From contig DWYL01000135.1 of NCBI GenBank assembly GCA_019118685.1, forward strand, positions 1 through 36,511: DNA of 36,511 bases, read 5' to 3'. Position 1 is the stretch's first letter. The number at the start of each line of letters is the position of its first letter. The notes beneath the pieces were generated by a model. It was not told the DNA's origin. It did not search any database and worked only from the letters and a program-made list of their open reading frames with translations. Below are positions 12,948 to 28,796 of this stretch, one piece after another. The translations under genes were made by a program, and so were the position numbers. This DNA is from Candidatus Blautia merdipullorum (GTDB taxonomy: Bacteria; Bacillota; Clostridia; Lachnospirales; Lachnospiraceae).

Positions 12948-13024
12948 GAGGGGCTGTCGCATTAGTTCATATTTCAGCAATAAAATGTATAAATATTCTC
13001 GATTTTGATTTGCGACGGCCCCTC
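12948..13024. repeat. Palindromic intergenic element E0 (coreless form), probable bidirectional terminator
   Basis: GAGGGGCTGTCGCA...TGCGACGGCCCCTC inverted repeat between convergent genes. The interior shares 35 nt exactly (inverted) with the element at 17672-17826. Confidence 0.85.
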
Positions 13025-17671: not shown

Positions 17672-17826
17672 AAAGGGGCTGTCGCATTTAATCAAAATCG
17701 AGAATATTTATACATTTTATTGCTCAGTCTGTGCCGCTTTGAGCCTATGGTCTCAAAGCTATGCTCGACAAATTCGCATAAAATGTATAAATATTCCTGA
17801 CATATGACTAATGCGACAGCCCCTTT
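17672..17826. repeat. Palindromic intergenic element E1 with conserved core
   Basis: Terminal inverted repeat AAAGGGGCTGTCGCAT (17672-17687) / ATGCGACAGCCCCTTT (17811-17826). Inner AT-rich stem AATATTTATACATTTTAT/ATAAAATGTATAAATATT. Core 17720-17778 TTGCTCAGTCTGTGCCGCTTTGAGCCTATGGTCTCAAAGCTATGCTCGACAAATTCGCA. Confidence 0.9.
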
Positions 17827-17835
17827 TTATATGAT

Positions 17836-18588
17836 TTATTGTTCAGAAAAAGAAGTTTCAGCAGCGCCTTCAGGTTTAGGGCGGGGATGATCCAGTTCAC
17901 CGGTGACATCCATATAAAAATGGGCGAAGGTGTTCTGGACATAAGGTTCCAGCCAGAGATAACCAATGTAGCATGTGAAAATACAGATGATCTCCAGGGG
18001 AATAAAGCTTAGATTGATATAGAAGTATCTGCCCTTGTTTCCCTTCATCAGACGGCAGCTTGTTTTCATTGCTTCTATAGCCCCCATCTCAGGATTATCC
18101 AGCAGCAGATAGTTGGACAGCCCGAAGAACAAAGACAAAAGAAGATTTACTAAAGACTGGATCAGAGCCGCCCCCAGACTGAAACCGAGAGACTCCAGTC
18201 CGTCGGTCCGGTAGCTTAAAATATTAAGAGGAAGGGACAAAACTACTTCCCCAAGGAGAAGGATCAGGTTTAAGGTCAGGAACCTGTCCGGCTGCATGGT
18301 AAAGGGCTGAACCAGATTTTTCAGATCATAGGGCTCTTTTCTGCTGAGGTTCAGGTGCATTTTCATATAACCTGCCTGCAGGACGGAAACAAAGAGCGAC
18401 ATAATATACAGCATGATCTGGCAGGTGATGATACTGAGCATACTGTAGGGGTTCAGCAGTGCGGTGATCACCATAGTCAATATAATAGAACAGATAAAAA
18501 TAAGGAGGCAGGCGCCGATCGGAAGCCCCCACTGCCTGATTAAGGTCTCTCTGGAGAGAGCTTTTAAATCTGATGATGAACGTTTCAT
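17836..18588 (-). CDS. DUF975-like integral membrane protein
   Basis: MKRSSSDLKALSRETLIRQWGLPIGACLLIFICSIILTMVITALL...GAIEAMKTSCRLMKGNKGRYFYINLSFIPLEIICIFTCYIGYLWLEPYVQNTFAHFYMD. Confidence 0.8.
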   Translation of the reverse strand: MKRSSSDLKALSRETLIRQWGLPIGACLLIFICSIILTMVITALLNPYSMLSIITCQIMLYIMSLFVSVLQAGYMKMHLNLSRKEPYDLKNLVQPFTMQPDRFLTLNLILLLGEVVLSLPLNILSYRTDGLESLGFSLGAALIQSLVNLLLSLFFGLSNYLLLDNPEMGAIEAMKTSCRLMKGNKGRYFYINLSFIPLEIICIFTCYIGYLWLEPYVQNTFAHFYMDVTGELDHPRPKPEGAAETSFSEQ

Positions 18589-18659
18589 AAAGATGTCTCC
18601 AATCTGAAAAGAATGTATACCGGAAAATCCGGCGGTGTTTTTCTTAAGGAATGTAAATA

Positions 18660-18688
18660 TTTACTTTCCAATAGTTCCGTTGTATAAT
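18660..18688 (+). promoter_or_regulatory. Promoter of the DUF2752-like gene
   Basis: TTTACT (18660-18665), 17-nt spacer, TATAAT (18683-18688). The perfect palindrome GTAAATATTTAC (18653-18664) overlaps the -35. Confidence 0.6.
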
Positions 18689-18724
18689 TTTCTATAAATT
18701 TTCGTGACAAGAGAGGCGAAAAAA

Positions 18725-19150
18725 ATGGGACAGCCCAAAAATCCACATCTGGAAAAAGGAATTTATCTTTGCGGACTGATCTTCCTGGGACTGGTGATGT
18801 TCTGGGCGGCAGCAGAATATTTTCTGAAACTGGAATTTAACCGCCCTCCCTGTTTGTTTCACCGTCTGACCGGTCTGTACTGTCCGGGCTGCGGAGGCAC
18901 AAGAGCAGTCAGACTTCTTCTCACAGGGCATATATGGAAATCTTTTTTACACCATCCGGGAGTCCTTTTTGCAGCGGCTTTGTATCTGTGGTTTATGGTT
19001 TCACAAACCATAGAACGTCTTTCAAAAGGAAAACTGGAAGTGGGACTTCCTTATTCGGATAGATTTCTTTATTGGGAAATAGTGGTTATCCTCATCCAAT
19101 GCCTTATAAAAAATCTTGTCAAAATCTTTTGGGGGATCGGGATTCTGTGA
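18725..19150 (+). CDS. DUF2752-like membrane protein
   Basis: LFHRLTGLYCPGCGGTRAVRLLLTGHIWKSFLHHPGVLFAAALYLWFMV: the CPGCGGTRA motif is characteristic. Confidence 0.88.
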   Translation: MGQPKNPHLEKGIYLCGLIFLGLVMFWAAAEYFLKLEFNRPPCLFHRLTGLYCPGCGGTRAVRLLLTGHIWKSFLHHPGVLFAAALYLWFMVSQTIERLSKGKLEVGLPYSDRFLYWEIVVILIQCLIKNLVKIFWGIGIL

Positions 19151-19153
19151 CCT

Positions 19154-19780
19154 TTAAATATAATTGTTTCCCGCTCCGGGATCTGTCTCCTCATAGTCTC
19201 CGGAGAAGCCTCCGTCATCTGGATAAGAATAACCGGGATACCCCTCTCCTCCGTTAAAATAATCATAATAATCATTGAAAAAGTCTTCATAAGCCTCTTC
19301 CCCGCCGTTGTAGTCAGGAAGGCCGGATGAGGAAGAGCCTGAATCAAACTGGGAGAATCCATCGGCATATTTCTGGATAAATTCATAAATATCCTGTTCA
19401 GTGAGAGTATCTGATGTGATCAGATCCATATAATCCCGGATCATACTCTGCCCTGTTGGGGAAGCAAGCACCCAGACAGAGACCGCAACTACGATTGCGG
19501 TAAGAACAGCAAGGAGGGCAGCGGAAATTCCCATTCCTGCTTTCGCTGTCCCGGGACGGGAAAATTTCCCTTTAGAAAGACAGGAAAAAAGGATTCCAAG
19601 TCCTGCAAGGGGAATGGATATAAAGGGAAAACAGCATAAAGATACCAGCGCCAGAATTCCCATAACAAGAGAAGCTGTAGCAAAGCCTTCATTTCCGTTA
19701 TAATACTGGGGCGGAGGGGCTGGCACAGGATCTTCCGGGTTATATGGCTGATAATAATTGCCTTCTGTTGGATTGTCCAT
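19154..19780 (-). CDS. DUF4190-like membrane protein with a Gly/Tyr/Asp-rich C-terminal tail
   Basis: Pro/Tyr-rich N-terminus, then GFATASLVMGILALVSLCCFPFISIPLAGLGILFSCLSKGKFSRPGTAKAGMGISAALLAVLTAIVVAVSVWVL (DUF4190-type double TM). Confidence 0.8.
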   Translation of the reverse strand: MDNPTEGNYYQPYNPEDPVPAPPPQYYNGNEGFATASLVMGILALVSLCCFPFISIPLAGLGILFSCLSKGKFSRPGTAKAGMGISAALLAVLTAIVVAVSVWVLASPTGQSMIRDYMDLITSDTLTEQDIYEFIQKYADGFSQFDSGSSSSGLPDYNGGEEAYEDFFNDYYDYFNGGEGYPGYSYPDDGGFSGDYEETDPGAGNNYI

Positions 19781-19954
19781 AAGTAAGAACCTCATTTCTG
19801 TAGTGTTTTCCCTATTTTAGCATGTATGGGCGAAGGGGGCAAGTCATTGAAGGAAGAATTGAAAATACTGGAAGGCCTCCTTGATTTTTAAGAAAATACA
19901 TGATAGAGTTTTATGGGCTGAAGAATTATAAATATAGGAAGGAACAATAATTAT

Positions 19955-22108
19955 ATGGATATTATTCAGAAAATCACCCAGGAATTAAAAGTAGAAAAAT
20001 GGCAGGTAGAAGCTGCCGTCAAATTAATAGACGAGGGAAATACCATTCCTTTTATTTCCAGATACCGTAAGGAAGCCACCGGAGCTTTAAATGATGAACA
20101 GCTCCGGAATCTTTTTGAGAGACTGAACTATCTGCGAAATCTGGAAGATAAGAAAAATCAGGTCCTTTCCAGCATTGAAGAACAGGGAAAACTGACAGAA
20201 GAGCTGAAAAAACAGATTCTGGAGGCAGAGACCTTGGTGGTAGTAGAAGATCTTTACCGCCCCTATCGCCCGAAGAGAAGGACAAGAGCAACGATCGCCA
20301 AGGAGAAAGGCCTGGAGCCTCTGGCGAATATTCTGCTTTTACAGATGACGGAAAAAAGTCTGGAAGAGGAGGCTGCGGCTTTTGTCTCTCAGGAGAAAGA
20401 GGTGAACACTCCCCAGGAGGCTCTGGCAGGGGCTATGGATATTGTGGCAGAAAGTATTTCAGATGAAGCGGACTATCGTATTCGTATCCGAAAGATGACT
20501 ATGAAATCCGGGCTTCTTGTATCTGCCGCAAAAAAACCGGAGGAATCTACAGTATACGACATGTACTATGATTATGTGGAGCCGGTTTCTAAAGTGGCAG
20601 GCCATAGGATTCTGGCCATTAACCGGGGAGAAAAGGAAAAAATCCTGACTGTAAAGATCCAGGCTCCGGAGGAAGATATTCTTCGTTATCTGGAAAAGCA
20701 GGTGATCAAAAGGGATAACCCTAATACCACCGGAACTTTAAAAGCAGCGGTGGAGGACAGCTACCGCCGCCTGATCGCTCCGGCTATCGAACGAGAGATC
20801 CGCAGTGATCTGACGGAAAAAGCAGAGGACGGGGCGATTAAGGTATTTAAGAAAAATCTGGAACAGCTTCTTATGCAGCCGCCTATTGAAGGACAGGTGG
20901 TCCTGGGCTGGGATCCTGCCTTCCGTACCGGATGTAAACTGGCCGTGGTGGATCCTACAGGAAAGGTTCTGGATACCACTGTTATCTATCCCACAGCGCC
21001 GACTACTTCGGCTAAGATCGCAGCGGCAAAAGAGACCCTGAAAAAGCTGATCAAAAAATACCACGTTACTTTGTTCTCTGTAGGAAACGGAACAGCCAGC
21101 AGAGAATCAGAGCAGATCATTGTAGAACTTTTGAAGGAGATTCCGGAGAAGGTCCAGTATGTGATCACAAACGAGGCAGGAGCTTCCGTGTATTCTGCCA
21201 GCAAGCTGGCTACAGAAGAGTTCCCTAACTTTGATGTGGGGCAGAGAAGTGCGGCTTCCATTGCCAGGAGACTTCAGGATCCTTTGGCGGAGCTGGTAAA
21301 GATCGATCCAAAGTCCATTGGAGTAGGCCAGTATCAGCATGACATGAATCAGAAGAAACTGGGCGAGGCTCTTTCCGGAGTGGTGGAAGACTGCGTAAAC
21401 CGGGTAGGAGTGGATCTGAACACTGCCTCGGTTTCCCTTCTGGAGTATGTGTCCGGTATTTCTAAAGCCATTGCTAAAAATATTGTGACCTACAGAGAAG
21501 AAAACGGACGTTTTGAGGACAGAAAAGAACTTCTGAAAGTGGCTAAACTGGGACCGAAAGCTTTTGAGCAGTGCGCCGGTTTCCTTCGTATCCGGGGAGG
21601 AAAGAATCCTCTGGACGGTACCAGCGTACATCCGGAGTCCTATGAAGCTGCAGAAAAATTTCTGTCCCAGATGGGAATGAAACCGGAAGATATTTTTAAC
21701 GGAACAGGAGTATATTATGTAAAAGATTACGGTCAGATGGCTAAGAAGCTGGGAATCGGCGAGATGACACTCCGGGATATTGTGAAAGAGCTGACAAAGC
21801 CTGGAAGAGACCCAAGAGAAGAAATGCCAAGACCGATTCTTCGTACGGATGTTCTGGAAATGAAAGATCTGAAAGAGGGAATGATTCTTAAAGGGACCGT
21901 GCGGAATGTGATTGATTTTGGAGCCTTTGTGGATATCGGAGTTCACCAGGATGGACTGGTGCATATTTCTCAGATGACAGACCGGTATATTAAGCACCCT
22001 TTAGAGGCAGTCAGTGTAGGAGACATTGTAGAGGTTAAAGTGCTAGGGGTAGATATGAAGAAAAAGAGAATCTCTCTCACCATGAAGGGAATCCATGAAA
22101 GAGGATAA
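19955..22108 (+). CDS. tex: Tex-like RNA-binding transcriptional accessory protein (S1 domain)
   Basis: IIQKITQELKVEKWQVEAAVKLIDEGNTIPFISRYRKEATGALND...GWDPAFRTGCKLAVVD...SIARRLQDPLAELVKIDPKSIGVGQYQHDMNQKKL...LKGTVRNVIDFGAFVDIGVHQDGLVHISQM. Confidence 0.97.
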   Translation: MDIIQKITQELKVEKWQVEAAVKLIDEGNTIPFISRYRKEATGALNDEQLRNLFERLNYLRNLEDKKNQVLSSIEEQGKLTEELKKQILEAETLVVVEDLYRPYRPKRRTRATIAKEKGLEPLANILLLQMTEKSLEEEAAAFVSQEKEVNTPQEALAGAMDIVAESISDEADYRIRIRKMTMKSGLLVSAAKKPEESTVYDMYYDYVEPVSKVAGHRILAINRGEKEKILTVKIQAPEEDILRYLEKQVIKRDNPNTTGTLKAAVEDSYRRLIAPAIEREIRSDLTEKAEDGAIKVFKKNLEQLLMQPPIEGQVVLGWDPAFRTGCKLAVVDPTGKVLDTTVIYPTAPTTSAKIAAAKETLKKLIKKYHVTLFSVGNGTASRESEQIIVELLKEIPEKVQYVITNEAGASVYSASKLATEEFPNFDVGQRSAASIARRLQDPLAELVKIDPKSIGVGQYQHDMNQKKLGEALSGVVEDCVNRVGVDLNTASVSLLEYVSGISKAIAKNIVTYREENGRFEDRKELLKVAKLGPKAFEQCAGFLRIRGGKNPLDGTSVHPESYEAAEKFLSQMGMKPEDIFNGTGVYYVKDYGQMAKKLGIGEMTLRDIVKELTKPGRDPREEMPRPILRTDVLEMKDLKEGMILKGTVRNVIDFGAFVDIGVHQDGLVHISQMTDRYIKHPLEAVSVGDIVEVKVLGVDMKKKRISLTMKGIHERG

Positions 22109-22170
22109 CGGCTTTATTCTGAGAGATTTCTATAGATAATTTACTTTAGAAGAGAAAGGAAGAGCTTAAA

Positions 22171-23979
22171 ATGAATGTAAATCAGGAAAGAATTGTAAAA
22201 CTGCAGCAGGAAATGAAGGCGGCAGGGATAGATCTGTACCTGGTGCCTACTGCAGATTTTCATCAGTCTGAGTATGTAGGAGATTACTTTAAGGCGAGAG
22301 CCTGGCTTTCAGGATTTACCGGTTCCGCAGGAACTTTGATCGTAACCCAAGATCAGGCCTGCCTTTGGACAGACGGCAGATATTTCATCCAGGCGGCAAA
22401 GCAGCTTTCCGATACCGGGGTGACTCTTATGAAAATGGGGGAAGAAGGAGTGCCTACAGTAGAAGAATTTATTGAGAAAAATCTTCCCCGAAAAGGCTGC
22501 CTGGGCTGCGATGGGAGAACAGTCAGCGTGGCGGAAGGAAAGAAATACGAAGAACTTTTAAATAAGAAGGAGGCCACTTTAAAGTGTCAGGATGACCTGG
22601 CAGGAAAGATATGGGCAGACCGCCCCCAGATGTCTAAGGAGCCGGTTTATCTTCTTGATGTGAAATATGCGGGAGAAACCCGGGAAGATAAGATTGCCAG
22701 AGTCCGTAAAGAGATGGAAAAGGCAGGGGCTCAGGTCCATGTCCTCTCCAGTCTGGATGATATTGTATGGCTGCTGAATATCAGGGGAAATGATATTGAG
22801 TACAATCCGGTAGTGCTTTCTTATGTAATACTGACCATGGATCAGCTTCATTTTTATGTACAGGAAGAGGCTGTGCCGGATCAGGTCAGAGAAGAACTGC
22901 AAAAAGCAGGAGTAGTGCTTCATCCATATTTTAAGGTTTATGAGGATGTGAAAAAACTGGATCCTGCTGATAAGGTAATGCTGGAAGAGCAATGTACAAA
23001 CTATACTCTTTATAAAAATATTCCGGAAGGCACAGAAGTTATTTTCCAGCCTAATCCTGCAGCCGTTTTCAAAGGAAATAAAAACCCTGTAGAAATGGAA
23101 AACCTGAAAATAGCCCATATAAAAGACGCCAGAGCTATGTGCAGGTTTATCTACTGGCTGAAAAAGAATGTGCCTGGCGGGGAGGTTACAGAATACAGTG
23201 CTTCAATGGAAAGCAGGAAATTCCGTATGGAAGATCCGGATTGCCTGGATCTCAGCTTTGAGACGATCTGTGCTTACGGCCCTAATGCGGCTATGTGCCA
23301 CTATGCGCCTACGGAAACAGACTTTGCAAAAGTAGAGCCGAGAGGATTTTTCCTTATTGATTCCGGCGGACAGTATTGGCAGGGAACTACAGATATCACC
23401 AGGACCATTGCAGTAGGGGAGCTGACCCGGGAGCAGAAAGAACACTTTACGCTTGTACTTCAGGGACATATCCGTCTGGCAATGGCAAAATTCCAACAGG
23501 GCTGCAGCGGAGCTAATCTGGATATTCTGGTAAGAGGTCCTCTTTGGGCCAGAGGCCTGGATTTTAACCATGGAACAGGTCACGGAGTAGGATATCTCCT
23601 TAATGTCCATGAAGGACCTCAGAATATTAACTGGAAAATTCGTGTAAACGGGAGCAGAAGAGGAAATGCGACTCCTTTGGAGGAGGGAATGCTTACTTCT
23701 GACGAACCGGGATTGTATCTGGAAGGTAAATACGGTATCCGTACAGAAAACTTGCTTCTCTGCAAAAAAGCGGAGAGAAATGAATATGGCCAGTTTATGG
23801 AATTTGAGACGGTTACCCTGGTACCTTATGAGAGAGAAGCAGTTCTTCCGGAAATGCTGACCAGGGAGGAACTGGAATGGCTGAACCGTTACCACAAAAA
23901 GGTGTATGAAACTATAGGACCTATGCTTACTGAAGAGGAAAGAAGATGGCTGAAAGAGGCTACTGCTGAAATTGGCTGA
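22171..23979 (+). CDS. Xaa-Pro aminopeptidase (M24B family)
   Basis: DLYLVPTADFHQSEYVGDYFKARAWLSGFTGSAGTLIVTQDQACLWTDGRYF...LIDSGGQYWQGTTDITRTIAVG...NHGTGHGVGYLLNVHEGPQNI...SDEPGLYLEGKYGIRTENL. Confidence 0.96.
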   Translation: MNVNQERIVKLQQEMKAAGIDLYLVPTADFHQSEYVGDYFKARAWLSGFTGSAGTLIVTQDQACLWTDGRYFIQAAKQLSDTGVTLMKMGEEGVPTVEEFIEKNLPRKGCLGCDGRTVSVAEGKKYEELLNKKEATLKCQDDLAGKIWADRPQMSKEPVYLLDVKYAGETREDKIARVRKEMEKAGAQVHVLSSLDDIVWLLNIRGNDIEYNPVVLSYVILTMDQLHFYVQEEAVPDQVREELQKAGVVLHPYFKVYEDVKKLDPADKVMLEEQCTNYTLYKNIPEGTEVIFQPNPAAVFKGNKNPVEMENLKIAHIKDARAMCRFIYWLKKNVPGGEVTEYSASMESRKFRMEDPDCLDLSFETICAYGPNAAMCHYAPTETDFAKVEPRGFFLIDSGGQYWQGTTDITRTIAVGELTREQKEHFTLVLQGHIRLAMAKFQQGCSGANLDILVRGPLWARGLDFNHGTGHGVGYLLNVHEGPQNINWKIRVNGSRRGNATPLEEGMLTSDEPGLYLEGKYGIRTENLLLCKKAERNEYGQFMEFETVTLVPYEREAVLPEMLTREELEWLNRYHKKVYETIGPMLTEEERRWLKEATAEIG

Positions 23980-24002
23980 AAGCAGACATGATAGAAACAG
24001 CA

Positions 24003-24067
24003 AAACGGAGCCGCCCGAAAATGAAAGAACAGGTGAAAACAGGACTGGGGCGGTTCTGTTTTTTTGA
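24003..24067 (+). terminator. Terminator after the aminopeptidase gene
   Basis: AACGGAGCCGCCC...GGGGCGGTTCTGTTTTTTT. Confidence 0.75.
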
Positions 24068-24112
24068 CTAAAAGCTGTGGGGATAAGTTCTTTTTTTTCA
24101 TATTTTTGTGCA

Positions 24113-24182
24113 TTGACAGTATGAGAACAGGGGCCTTATAATAGTATTAGTTCGGAAACGAACTATTTGGAAACCGAACTAA
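24113..24182 (+). promoter_or_regulatory. Promoter and MarR-type operator array for the marR-ABC operon
   Basis: TTGACA (24113-24118), 18-nt spacer, TATAAT (24137-24142). Then TAGTTCG-gaaa-CGAACTA (24148-24165) and a third half-site CCGAACTAA (24174-24182). Confidence 0.8.
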
Positions 24183-24199
24183 TTCAGTGAGGTGAGAGC

Positions 24200-24703
24200 A
24201 TGGAAAAAAAGGAGTTGATTCAGGGCAGCCCCAAAAAAGAAGAGGATGCGGGAAGAATCATCAATATCGTATCCCATCAACTGAAACGGACAATTTTTTT
24301 CTACACATGGAAGGACTGTGGGCTGACTACCATGCAGAACCGTGTTCTGCATTATATTCTCGCCAGATCCCTGGAAAATCCCGTATACCAGAAGGATATT
24401 GAGAAAGAATTTAAAGTCAGCAAGTCTACGGTAACAGAAATCCTCCAGCTTATGGAAAAGAATGGCTTCATTATCAGAAAGTCATCGAAACGTGACGGCA
24501 GGATGAAAAGAATCCTGCCTACAGAAAAGGCTATCACTATTCAAAAAGAAGTGATGGACAATATCAGGACCGTAGAGGAAAAGCTTCGGGCAGGAATAAG
24601 TGAAGAAGATTACAGAACCTGCCTCAGAGTCCTAAAAAAGATGTCCGAAAATTTAGCCAAAGAAGAAGATTATATGAAAGGAAGGGAAGAGATGTATGAA
24701 TAG
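24200..24703 (+). CDS. MarR family transcriptional regulator
   Basis: LTTMQNRVLHYILARSLENPVYQKDIEKEFKVSKSTVTEILQLMEKNGFIIRKSSKRDGRMKRILPTEKA: winged HTH; overlaps the downstream ABC gene by 8 nt. Confidence 0.93.
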   Translation: MEKKELIQGSPKKEEDAGRIINIVSHQLKRTIFFYTWKDCGLTTMQNRVLHYILARSLENPVYQKDIEKEFKVSKSTVTEILQLMEKNGFIIRKSSKRDGRMKRILPTEKAITIQKEVMDNIRTVEEKLRAGISEEDYRTCLRVLKKMSENLAKEEDYMKGREEMYE

Positions 24704-26429
24704 GAAACTGCTTCGATCTGTACGGGAATACAAAAAGGAATCTATTATGACACCGATTCTCGTAATCTTTGAAGTGTTTATGGAAGTGCTGATCCCGCTT
24801 CTGATGGCCCAGATTATCGACGTAGGAATCGCTAACGGAGATATGGGGTACATACTGCGTATAGGAGTGCTTCTGGTAGTCATGGCAATTGTGTCTCTGT
24901 TTTTTGGCGCTATGGCAGGAAGAACGGGAGCAATCGCATCTTCAGGTTATGCCAAAAATCTGAGGCATGATATATTTTATAAAATACAGGAATTTTCATT
25001 TAAGAATATTGATCATTTTTCAACATCCAGTCTGGTGACTAGGCTGACCACAGATATCACTAACATTCAGATGGCATACATGATGACTATCCGTATGCTG
25101 GTAAGAGCGCCGATCATGATCGTGCTGTCTCTTATCATGACCCTGACGATCAATGCAGATATTGCCCTGATGTTGCTGATTACAGTACCGATCCTGGGGG
25201 GAGCGCTGATCTTTATCGCGAAGAAAGCCCATCCTCACTTTATCCAGGTATTTGATGAATATGATGTGCTGAATAATACCGTACAGGAGAACGTGAATGC
25301 AGCCAGAGTGGTAAAGGCATATGTAAGGGCTGAATATGAAAATCAGAAATTTCATAAGATTTCAGGAATCGTCTATAAACTGTTTACCACCGCTGAGAAG
25401 ATCGTAGCCTGGAACAATCCGGTGATGATGTTTACTATGTATCTGGTAGTTCTTTGCATGGTTTATATCGGCGGCCAGAGTATTGTTTTCGGAACTATGG
25501 AGACCGGCGAGCTTACCAGCGTGATCGTTTATGCGATCCAGATCCTCAGTTCTCTGATGATCGTTTCCTTTGTTTTTGTACTGATCATGATCGCTCAGGC
25601 GTCTACAGACCGTATTACAGAGGTTATGGATGAAGTGCCGGAAATGTCTGACAAAGAGGACGCAAAGACAGAAGTGAAGAACGGTGACATTGATTTTGAA
25701 AACGTAGATTTCAGCTATGCCGGAGAGGGCGGAAATCTTTCTTTGAAAAATGTTAATCTTCATATTAAATCAGGACAGATGATCGGTGTGATCGGCGGCA
25801 CCGGAAGCGCAAAGTCTACCTTGGTACAGCTGATTCCCAGACTTTATGACGTAACGAAAGGTACTGTAAAAGTAGGAGATGTGGATGTACGGGATTACAA
25901 ACTGGAATCTCTCCGCGATCAGGTTTCTGTGGTACTCCAGAAAAATGTGCTGTTTACAGGATCGATTTACGACAACATCCGCTGGGGCGATGAGAACGCC
26001 ACAGATGAGGAAGTCCAAAGAGTCTGTAAGCTGGCTCAGGCTGACAGCTTTATCCAGGAATTCCCGGATAAGTATGACACCATGATCGTGGAAGGGGGAA
26101 ATAACGTTTCCGGCGGTCAGAAACAGAGACTTTGTATTGCAAGAGCTCTGCTGAAAAAACCCAAGGTACTGATCCTGGACGATTCTACCAGTGCGGTAGA
26201 TACCAAGACAGACGCTATGATCCGTAAAGCCTTCAGAGAAGAGATACCGGATACTACCAAGATCATCATTGCACAGAGGATCTCTTCTGTAGAAGATGCG
26301 GATATGATCATTGTTATGGAAAATGGTGAGATCAACGGCGTAGGAACTTCAGAAGAACTGCTGAAGAACAACGCTATTTATCGTGAAATCTATGAATCAC
26401 AGATTAAAGGAGGTGGAGAGGATGAGTAA
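24696..26429 (+). CDS. ABC exporter half-transporter (TMD-NBD), degenerate nucleotide-binding site subunit
   Basis: TMD plus NBD: GGTGSAKSTL (Walker A), VSGGQKQR, LILDDSTSAVDT (D in place of the catalytic E), IIIAQRISS (Q in place of the switch H). Confidence 0.95.
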   Translation: MNRKLLRSVREYKKESIMTPILVIFEVFMEVLIPLLMAQIIDVGIANGDMGYILRIGVLLVVMAIVSLFFGAMAGRTGAIASSGYAKNLRHDIFYKIQEFSFKNIDHFSTSSLVTRLTTDITNIQMAYMMTIRMLVRAPIMIVLSLIMTLTINADIALMLLITVPILGGALIFIAKKAHPHFIQVFDEYDVLNNTVQENVNAARVVKAYVRAEYENQKFHKISGIVYKLFTTAEKIVAWNNPVMMFTMYLVVLCMVYIGGQSIVFGTMETGELTSVIVYAIQILSSLMIVSFVFVLIMIAQASTDRITEVMDEVPEMSDKEDAKTEVKNGDIDFENVDFSYAGEGGNLSLKNVNLHIKSGQMIGVIGGTGSAKSTLVQLIPRLYDVTKGTVKVGDVDVRDYKLESLRDQVSVVLQKNVLFTGSIYDNIRWGDENATDEEVQRVCKLAQADSFIQEFPDKYDTMIVEGGNNVSGGQKQRLCIARALLKKPKVLILDDSTSAVDTKTDAMIRKAFREEIPDTTKIIIAQRISSVEDADMIIVMENGEINGVGTSEELLKNNAIYREIYESQIKGGGEDE

Positions 26430-28314
26430 ACCAAATGATAAGCCAAAGGTAAGCGCAGGTACCCTTAAGACAGCAGGAAGACTTATGAAATATGTGACAG
26501 GTCCTTATAAGGTACAGTTTATCATTGTATTGATTTGTATACTTATGACCTCCATATCATCTATCGCGGTATCCCTTTCCTTGAGATTTTTATTGGACGA
26601 TTATATCCTGCCTCTGGTGGGACAGCAGGATCCGAATTTCTCTGAACTGTATAAAGCTATGGCGGTTCTGGCCTGCATTTTTATACTGGGTGTCATTGCC
26701 AGTTTTATATACAACCGTATGATGGTTGTGATCGGCCAGGGCGTGCTGAAGAAGGTCAGAGATGAAATGTTTGAACATATGCAGACCCTTCCGATCCGCT
26801 ACTTTGATCAGAATACCAACGGCTCTATCATGAGTCTTTACACAAATGATACTGATACTCTGAGGCAGATGATCAACCAGTCCATCCCTCAGGTCCTTAT
26901 GTCTAGTTTTACTATTGTAGTAACTTTTATTTCTATGCTGCTTTTGAGTCCGATACTTACAGCACTGGCTGTTCTGGTGATTCTGCTTATGATAGTAGTG
27001 GCCAGATATGTAGGCGGAAACAGCGGCAAGTATTTTATCCGCCAGCAGATTGACCTGGCAGATGTGACCGGATATGTAGAAGAGCATATGAACGGTCAGA
27101 GGGTTATCAAGGTCTTCAACCATGAAAGAAAGACAGAAGAAGAATTTGATAAATTAAATGAGCGCCTTTATGAAAGCGCTTCTTCTGCTCATACTTTTGC
27201 AAGTATGATGGGACCTATCATCGGTAATATGGGAAACCTGCAGTTCGTGCTCACAGCCATCTTCGGCGGCGTTCTTTCCGTAGCAGGAGTCGGCGGCATC
27301 ACACTGGGAGTTATGGCTTCTTATCTTCAGTTTACCAGAAGTTTTACACAGCCGTTTATGCAGATTGCCCAGCAGTTTAACTCTATCATCATGGCTCTGG
27401 CAGGTGCAGAACGTATCTTCCATATGATCGATGAGGAGCCGGAGGTAGACGACGGATATGTAACTCTTGTAAATGCCAGAAAGAATGCCGACGGAAGCCT
27501 TACTGAATGTAAGGAGCGTACAGGAGTATGGGCCTGGAAGCATCCTCATCAGGCTGACGGCAGCGTAACTTATACAGAATTAAAAGGTGACGTTAGATTC
27601 TTTGATATGTCTTTCGGATATACCGATGATCATATGGTACTCCATGATCTGACCCTTTACGCAAAGCCGGGGCAGAAGGTTGCCTTCGTAGGTTCTACCG
27701 GTGCAGGTAAAACCACGATTACAAACCTGATCAATCGTTTCTATGATGTGCAGGATGGTAAGATCCGCTACGACGGAATCAACATCAACAAGATCAAAAA
27801 GGCAGATCTCCGTCATTCTCTGGGAATCGTACTTCAGGATACCCACTTGTTTACCGGAACCATTATGGAAAACATCCGGTACGGAAAGCTGGATGCCACG
27901 GACGAAGAAGTCTATGCTGCAGCCAGACTGGCCCATGCGGATCAGTTTATCAATATGCTTCCAAAGGGATATGATACAGTACTTACCGGTGACGGTGAAG
28001 AACTGTCTCAGGGACAGCGTCAGCTGCTGGCTATTGCCAGAGCCGCCATCGCAGACCCGCCGGTATTGATTCTGGACGAGGCAACTTCCAGCATCGATAC
28101 CCGTACAGAGCGTATCGTGCAGCAGGGTATGGATAACCTGATGAAGGGACGTACTGTATTCGTTATTGCTCACAGACTGTCCACTATCCGGAATAGTGAT
28201 GCCATCATGGTTCTGGAACACGGACGGATCATCGAGAGAGGTACCCATAAAGAGCTGCTGGCTATGAAGGGAACCTACTATCAGTTGTATACTGGAAAAC
28301 TGGAACTGTCATAG
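26422..28314 (+). CDS. ABC exporter half-transporter (TMD-NBD), canonical catalytic subunit
   Basis: GSTGAGKTTITNLI (Walker A), LSQGQRQLLAIARA, LILDEATSSIDT, VIAHRLST. ATG 26422 overlaps the preceding gene. Confidence 0.95.
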   Translation: MSKPNDKPKVSAGTLKTAGRLMKYVTGPYKVQFIIVLICILMTSISSIAVSLSLRFLLDDYILPLVGQQDPNFSELYKAMAVLACIFILGVIASFIYNRMMVVIGQGVLKKVRDEMFEHMQTLPIRYFDQNTNGSIMSLYTNDTDTLRQMINQSIPQVLMSSFTIVVTFISMLLLSPILTALAVLVILLMIVVARYVGGNSGKYFIRQQIDLADVTGYVEEHMNGQRVIKVFNHERKTEEEFDKLNERLYESASSAHTFASMMGPIIGNMGNLQFVLTAIFGGVLSVAGVGGITLGVMASYLQFTRSFTQPFMQIAQQFNSIIMALAGAERIFHMIDEEPEVDDGYVTLVNARKNADGSLTECKERTGVWAWKHPHQADGSVTYTELKGDVRFFDMSFGYTDDHMVLHDLTLYAKPGQKVAFVGSTGAGKTTITNLINRFYDVQDGKIRYDGININKIKKADLRHSLGIVLQDTHLFTGTIMENIRYGKLDATDEEVYAAARLAHADQFINMLPKGYDTVLTGDGEELSQGQRQLLAIARAAIADPPVLILDEATSSIDTRTERIVQQGMDNLMKGRTVFVIAHRLSTIRNSDAIMVLEHGRIIERGTHKELLAMKGTYYQLYTGKLELS

Positions 28315-28333
28315 TTATTTATAGACGGGATGG

Positions 28334-28426
28334 AAGCCCCCTGTGTTTTCTTGCTCAGTCTGCGCTGGTTTGATTCTGAGGTCTCAAACCATGCTCGACA
28401 AATTCGCAGAAAACACAGGGGGCTTT
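28334..28426. repeat. Palindromic intergenic element E2 with conserved core, probable terminator
   Basis: Arms AAGCCCCCTGTGTTTTC / GAAAACACAGGGGGCTT around core 28351-28408 TTGCTCAGTCTGCGCTGGTTTGATTCTGAGGTCTCAAACCATGCTCGACAAATTCGCA, nearly identical to the core of E1. Confidence 0.9.
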
Positions 28427-28529
28427 CTGCGTGTATAGAAAATGTGAGGTGGAGTCTGGGCTGGCTTGAGAAAATTCTGCTGGAATTGGGAGGGGTGATG
28501 GGATATACTTAGGGGAAAGAGGTGAGTGC

Positions 28530-28796
28530 ATGAGGTTTAAACCATTGCCTATTGGCGTAGATGATTTTGAAAAGATCAGAGAACAGGGATATTATTATGC
28601 AGATAAGACGCTGTTGATCAAGGAGCTTCTGGAAAATATTTATACTGCTGGGGAGGCCCCGAAGGTCGTAAATATAGAGGAACAGCTTTGCAGTTTTAAA
28701 TGGAAACGGGTCTTCGAGATGGAAAGGAAACGGCAGTATAAAAGCAGAGTTGGAAAAATGCCTTGGAATGTGATCTGCCTGAAAAGAGAAGGATGA
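28530..28796 (+). pseudogene. Truncated N-terminal remnant of an AAA-ATPase-like/PD-(D/E)XK family protein
   Basis: MRFKPLPIGVDDFEKIREQGYYYADKTLLIKELLEN matches the family N-terminus, but the P-loop segment normally expected next ('RPRRFGKT'-like) is absent and the frame continues into unrelated sequence. Confidence 0.6.

Follow-up and report, generated by a model that had tools for sequence, protein, structure and literature searches.

A gene-less palindromic repeat of Blautia with IS1182-type ends and a conserved apical core

The insertion sequences IS1272 and TnSha1 use DNA hairpins as targets, and their insertion is accompanied by a blunt deletion of the hairpin tip and by no target duplication (PMC4923244). 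Short palindromic repeats also occur in bacterial intergenic regions, where nesting has been described for BOX, RUP and SPRITE and inversion for Correia elements (PMC10969869). Here we describe a repeat found in a 36,511-nucleotide contig of Candidatus Blautia merdipullorum (DWYL01000135.1, hereafter the window).

An initial annotation had placed two related cores, E1 and E2, at positions 17720-17778 and 28351-28408, and both read as it described. When up to three mismatches were allowed, ATGCTCGACAAATTCGCA was found in the window at just these two cores (0.04 matches expected). The compensatory change reported between their apical hairpins is real, and one among several. The E1 core consists of TGC/GCA, an internal loop TCA/AAATTC, GTC/GAC, GYGC/RTGC and the apical hairpin GCTTTGAG/CTCAAAGC. 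The E1 palindrome reaches further out than had been described, to the ends of a unit located between convergent genes (Table 1). The ends of this unit are GGGGCTGTCGCATT on the left and AATGCGACAGCCCC on the right, and its host flanks are A-rich on the left (..aaaacaaa) and T-rich on the right (tttttat). Downstream of E2, a short ORF (28530-28796) aligns with PF09820 (AAA-ATPase_like) over just its first 30 positions and is probably a gene fragment.

Table 1 Features of the repeat family in the window.
Feature	Positions	Strand	Remarks
E1 full unit	17675..17823	+	149 bp; IS1182-type MITE; terminal repeat is that of IS1182-family IS
E1 left inner arm	17702..17719	+	GAATATTTATACATTTTA; bulged T at 17720
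E1 apical core	17721..17778	+	
E1 right inner arm	17779..17796	+	TAAAATGTATAAATATTC
E2 left arm	28333..28350	+	GAAGCCCCCTGTGTTTTC; bulged T at 28351; outside it no IS1182-type ends
E2 apical core	28352..28408	+	
E2 right arm	28409..28426	+	GAAAACACAGGGGGCTTT; T-tract poor
Half-core	28454..28470	+	GTCTGGGCTGGCTTGAG; tandem-copy remnant; the ortholog L046/L204 has two copies and a third partial one
Core-less relict of E1-type unit	12950..13022	.	73 bp; retains the two ends and a portion of the right arm

By its own terms, the initial annotation would have been refuted if these were the only two copies in any genome, with no covariation. This is false, as the right strand of E1 and E2 has 29 matches in its own genome (up to two mismatches; none for the reversed control) and the arms covary. 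Most core-bearing Blautia genomes, including those of Blautia sp. An81, Ca. B. avicola, Ca. B. pullistercoris and Ca. B. stercorigallinarum, gave 10-45 matches to the core, and the copy number is ~30 per genome. A covariance model (R1) searched against 200 genomes of the family found matches outside Blautia in one other Lachnospiraceae genus, g102, with three copies in genome G120. An order-wide search of 392 genomes gave strong matches in Blautia alone and borderline ones in two further genera (E about 6e-4). A pattern filter yielded 119 distinct cores, in which the internal loop is near-invariant (TCA in 116 and AAATTC in 111).

No Rfam family matched the window at the gathering score, and relaxed thresholds, applied to E2 alone, returned sub-threshold matches, mostly miRNA-type, of which nothing was credible. 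Plasmids and phages gave no match to the core; two matches in viral contigs were due to chance, the core structure being absent from both. A search of the open-access literature for the core strings found none. None of the families tested accounts for the apical core.

E1 and most other copies terminate in GGRGCTGTCGCATTA. We collected 77 distinct units with both ends, which are short, gene-less, multicopy and of fixed length (median 148 bp, range 143-165). IS1182-family elements of Blautia genomes G004 and G007 and of G120 end in GGGGCTGTCGC or GGGGCTGTCGG, and comparison of GGRGCTGTCGCATTA with GGGGCTGTCGC at four loci (L359, L358, L363 and L376) showed that the unit shares its terminal repeat with autonomous IS. 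The transposases of the G004 and G007 elements, that of L359 included, match NF033551 above the cut-off (E=1.2e-98 and 6.6e-92). In G004 and in G007, which has six copies, they lie between GGGGCTGTCGC/G repeats, and the G120 element has a DUF772 transposase domain between repeats of the same kind. As the ends of the unit are IS1182 terminal repeats, an IS1182 transposase might act on it in trans. No transposase of this type was detected by PF13751 or PF05598 in the genome of the window, and in genome G016 PF13751 found none and PF05598 gave one weak fragmentary match, so that mobilization in trans, which we infer, may be a past event. The core was not found in the IS1182 elements examined. In L359, each end of the G004 element (1-based 242-276 and about 2083-2127) is a small palindrome that resembles the outer stem of the MITE.

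As far as the open-access literature searched shows, the unit is a previously undescribed MITE family whose ends are of the IS1182 type and whose mode of insertion is known. Of the refuting observations named initially, a direct match to a known IS or MITE end holds for the outer ends of E1 and fails for the core and for E2. The description as a small mobile hairpin suits most copies, which are multicopy 148-bp units with IS1182-type ends, one of them nested in the core of another copy.

The insertion mode was read from flanks and comparison sites. Host flanks outside the unit are complementary over a mean run of 1.92, against 0.68 ± 0.12 for shuffled flanks (maximum 1.18 in 2000 shuffles). 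At three pairs of loci (L234/L269, L109/L319 and L168/L300), the unit-free relative has an ordinary hairpin that is replaced or truncated where the unit is present, and in a tyrS leader (L227) a unit sits in the core of an older copy, replacing its apical hairpin. These sites agree with insertion into a hairpin with loss of the tip and without target duplication, the exception being L237/L248, where the unit-free site has no hairpin. Tip replacement of this kind leaves host stem on both sides of the unit, as the flank statistics and comparison sites show. Landing in a pre-existing host hairpin, which accounts for the outer stem, together with inner arms kept complementary through paired change, explains the palindromes better than the earlier suggestion that the flank is copied in inverted form. 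Not all unit-free sites are pre-insertion states: L077/L312, L051/L249 and L017/L100 are deletions, and L150/L266 is compatible with a deletion between CCTGG repeats. Comparison sites are 80-95% identical and many absent sites are deletions, so that the polarity of the change is not certain everywhere. Core-less relicts of the unit are frequent and deletion derivatives common. Relative to the genome of the window, G016 has about 1.25 kb of extra DNA beside the element (L012 and L162).

We therefore favor, with a probability of about 0.68, the reading that E1 and most copies are an IS1182-type MITE residing in hairpins, mostly terminators, and that E2-type copies are old ones lacking the IS ends. 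A gene-less palindromic unit of ~148 bp would be mobilized in trans by an IS1182 transposase and land in DNA hairpins, mostly intrinsic terminators, whose tip it would replace without duplicating the target. The inserted unit would then become the new terminator stem, probably a bidirectional one. The unit contains the 18-bp inner arm, which the ~59-nt core caps.

The outer arms had been called unrelated, which is wrong within Blautia, where they share one 18-bp frame and are distinguished by substitutions that come in pairs. Their length is 18 bp in nearly all cases, and they usually read roughly GAA..........TTTTA/C before the bulged T; arms unlike those of E1 were seen in 12 of 131 distinct copies. 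In an alignment of 29 copies (A2), 95.8% of the cells are paired, a percentage favored by the choice of rows for arm diversity among intact-arm copies. That choice does not favor two-sided changes, which occur at 20 of the 36 pairs and in 143 cells, against 35.8 in shuffled alignments. The covariation of this alignment is 0.42; shuffling lowers it to 0.13 and sliding to no more than 0.08. At single loci (ABC exporter locus B, tyrS and metS), several arm positions vary between species, and nearly every such difference is compensated. The arms that looked unrelated are thus mostly arms that drifted in step. In G120, three cores sit on long, mutually unrelated arms, without IS1182 ends, that cannot be aligned with the Blautia arms, so separate origins are possible there. 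Among 107 near-identical, near-canonical copies, 36 arm changes were paired, some of them shared by descent, and 52 were unpaired. Since independent mutations would hardly ever coincide at such low divergence, this result points to hairpin-templated correction or to selection on both strands, and in old copies the arms would change in step by one of these two routes.

E2 is a member of the core hairpin family only and not of the IS1182 MITE, as no GGRGCTGTCGC ends lie around 28333-28426. Its hairpin is shared with G016, G006 and G015 (in tandem there), ordinary terminators follow the same exporter gene in G019, G014 and G005, and no copy was seen at the site in G013 and G017. The sequence downstream of the E2 site differs among the genomes where it was seen. 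E2 may be an old copy whose ends were lost, or its core may have lacked them from the start, and the same would apply to a few other loci. The core cannot be regarded just as the central part of the MITE, since it occurs without IS1182-type ends at E2, at loci B and D, in L225 and in the three g102 copies. It might be a hairpin-tip module separate from IS1182, with sequence and structure conserved in two genera while its arms are free to change, that was captured by the IS1182 MITE, spread to ~30 copies per genome and is recognized by a factor acting on extruded DNA, or else on RNA from either strand, a possibility that we hold tentatively and consider rather unlikely.

Old copies, some tandem or nested, lie at metS (L145, L150 and L180) and tyrS (L036, L059 and L227) between a T-box-like terminator, recognized by eye, and the start of the aminoacyl-tRNA synthetase gene. 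In two genera, homologous ABC ATPase genes also have a core copy upstream (L073 in G120; L022/L062/L185), which could reflect an ancient shared position or chance. An association with ABC transporters or T-box leaders was considered as a function and is suggestive only, with few loci and mixed orientation. For a second Blautia intergenic repeat (...GACCCTTGCGGCAGTCGCCAAATGGACATGCAAGCATGCCCGCTTGGCTCGTTGCTCGCAGGAATAA...), 1.58 Mb of G016 together with the window gave six matches; this repeat sometimes adjoins the hairpin units (L126, L232, L238, L242, L256, L257, L283, L289 and L299).

Cores on three unrelated arms in G120, the lack of IS1182 ends at E2, B and D, the tandem and half copies at old loci, and an inner part that can face either way within the outer frame would all suit a core hairpin that is itself an independent mobile module, recognized as folded single-stranded DNA, which entered several hairpins including one IS1182 MITE and was then amplified as its passenger. 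We regard this as improbable, because the Blautia arms fit one frame and drift by paired change, so that their differences need no separate insertions, and because no transposase was found to recur beside the cores. Y1/RAYT transposases, considered as the driver, were rejected, as they are not co-distributed with the cores.

The strong covariation and the near-invariant asymmetric internal loop might instead indicate a structured RNA motif, as proposed initially, that acts as a cis-regulator or 3′-end element in neighboring transcripts, with the arms as selected RNA stems and the spread secondary. Copies long retained next to ABC exporter genes and in the leaders of metS and tyrS, as well as core pair 13/43, near-fixed as G.U on the core strand, would fit such a motif. 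However, L039 and L173 carry the core in inverted orientation at the L024 locus, between flanks about 95% identical. A one-strand RNA should also favor G.U over A.C, and the arms have 164 unique contexts of each (13 and 16, respectively, in near-identical copies), which argues against a strand-specific RNA. Two pairs of the core are G.U or U.G in many or nearly all copies; the other pairs show no excess of G.U. Among cores next to co-directional genes, 28 had one orientation and 24 the other (47 lay between convergent and 12 between divergent genes), and folding z scores (-7.6 to -8.2) were about equal for both strands. A strand-specific RNA role of the core is unlikely given the inverted orthologous core, the arms with G.U not above A.C and an orientation independent of transcription; with no Rfam match and a range limited to two genera in addition, the strand-specific form of the initial proposal is not supported, and we consider the RNA motif as a whole quite improbable. 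Ordinary REP/BIME-like palindromes moved by a RAYT or IS200/IS605 Y1 transposase would likewise be intergenic, hairpin-shaped and of high copy number, but they can hardly account for a unit whose ends match IS1182 and not REP hairpins, with PF01797 undetected in six core-bearing genomes (G009, G012, G014, G015, G016 and G018) and present only as a fragment in the genome of the window.

Returning to the IS1182-type MITE, the asymmetric loop of the core would be a putative recognition site. That the unpaired loop is among the least variable parts of the core despite the turnover of the arms asks for a sequence-specific partner, most likely a factor acting on the extruded hairpin, either related to transposition or a host protein. 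The conserved apical core is thereby a testable candidate site. Hairpin-directed insertion by IS1182-type elements, described for the staphylococcal IS1272 and TnSha1 (PMC4923244), can also be studied in this family on a large number of natural examples, as can the rewriting of gut bacterial terminators by such insertions. The family calls for caution as well: very strong covariation is usually taken to mark a functional RNA, yet a DNA repeat that shows no G.U bias can have it too, probably because palindromes are corrected from a template.

Among known systems, Correia elements, ERIC, RUP, BOX and SPRITE are likewise short palindromic intergenic repeats with tens of copies or more (PMC10969869), but they differ from the unit in sequence, ends and lineage, and the arms of the unit covary around an almost invariant core. 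REP/BIME sequences with RAYT are extragenic palindromes like the unit, which differs from them by its IS1182-type ends and the lack of Y1 co-distribution. With the IS1182 family (IS1272 and TnSha1), the unit shares the GGGGCTGTCGC terminal repeat of the Blautia and G120 members and the insertion into hairpins or terminators with tip loss and no duplication (PMC4923244). It differs from this family in being 148 bp long without a transposase gene and in its apical core, which is present in no IS1182 element examined and stays conserved in another genus even though IS ends are lacking there.
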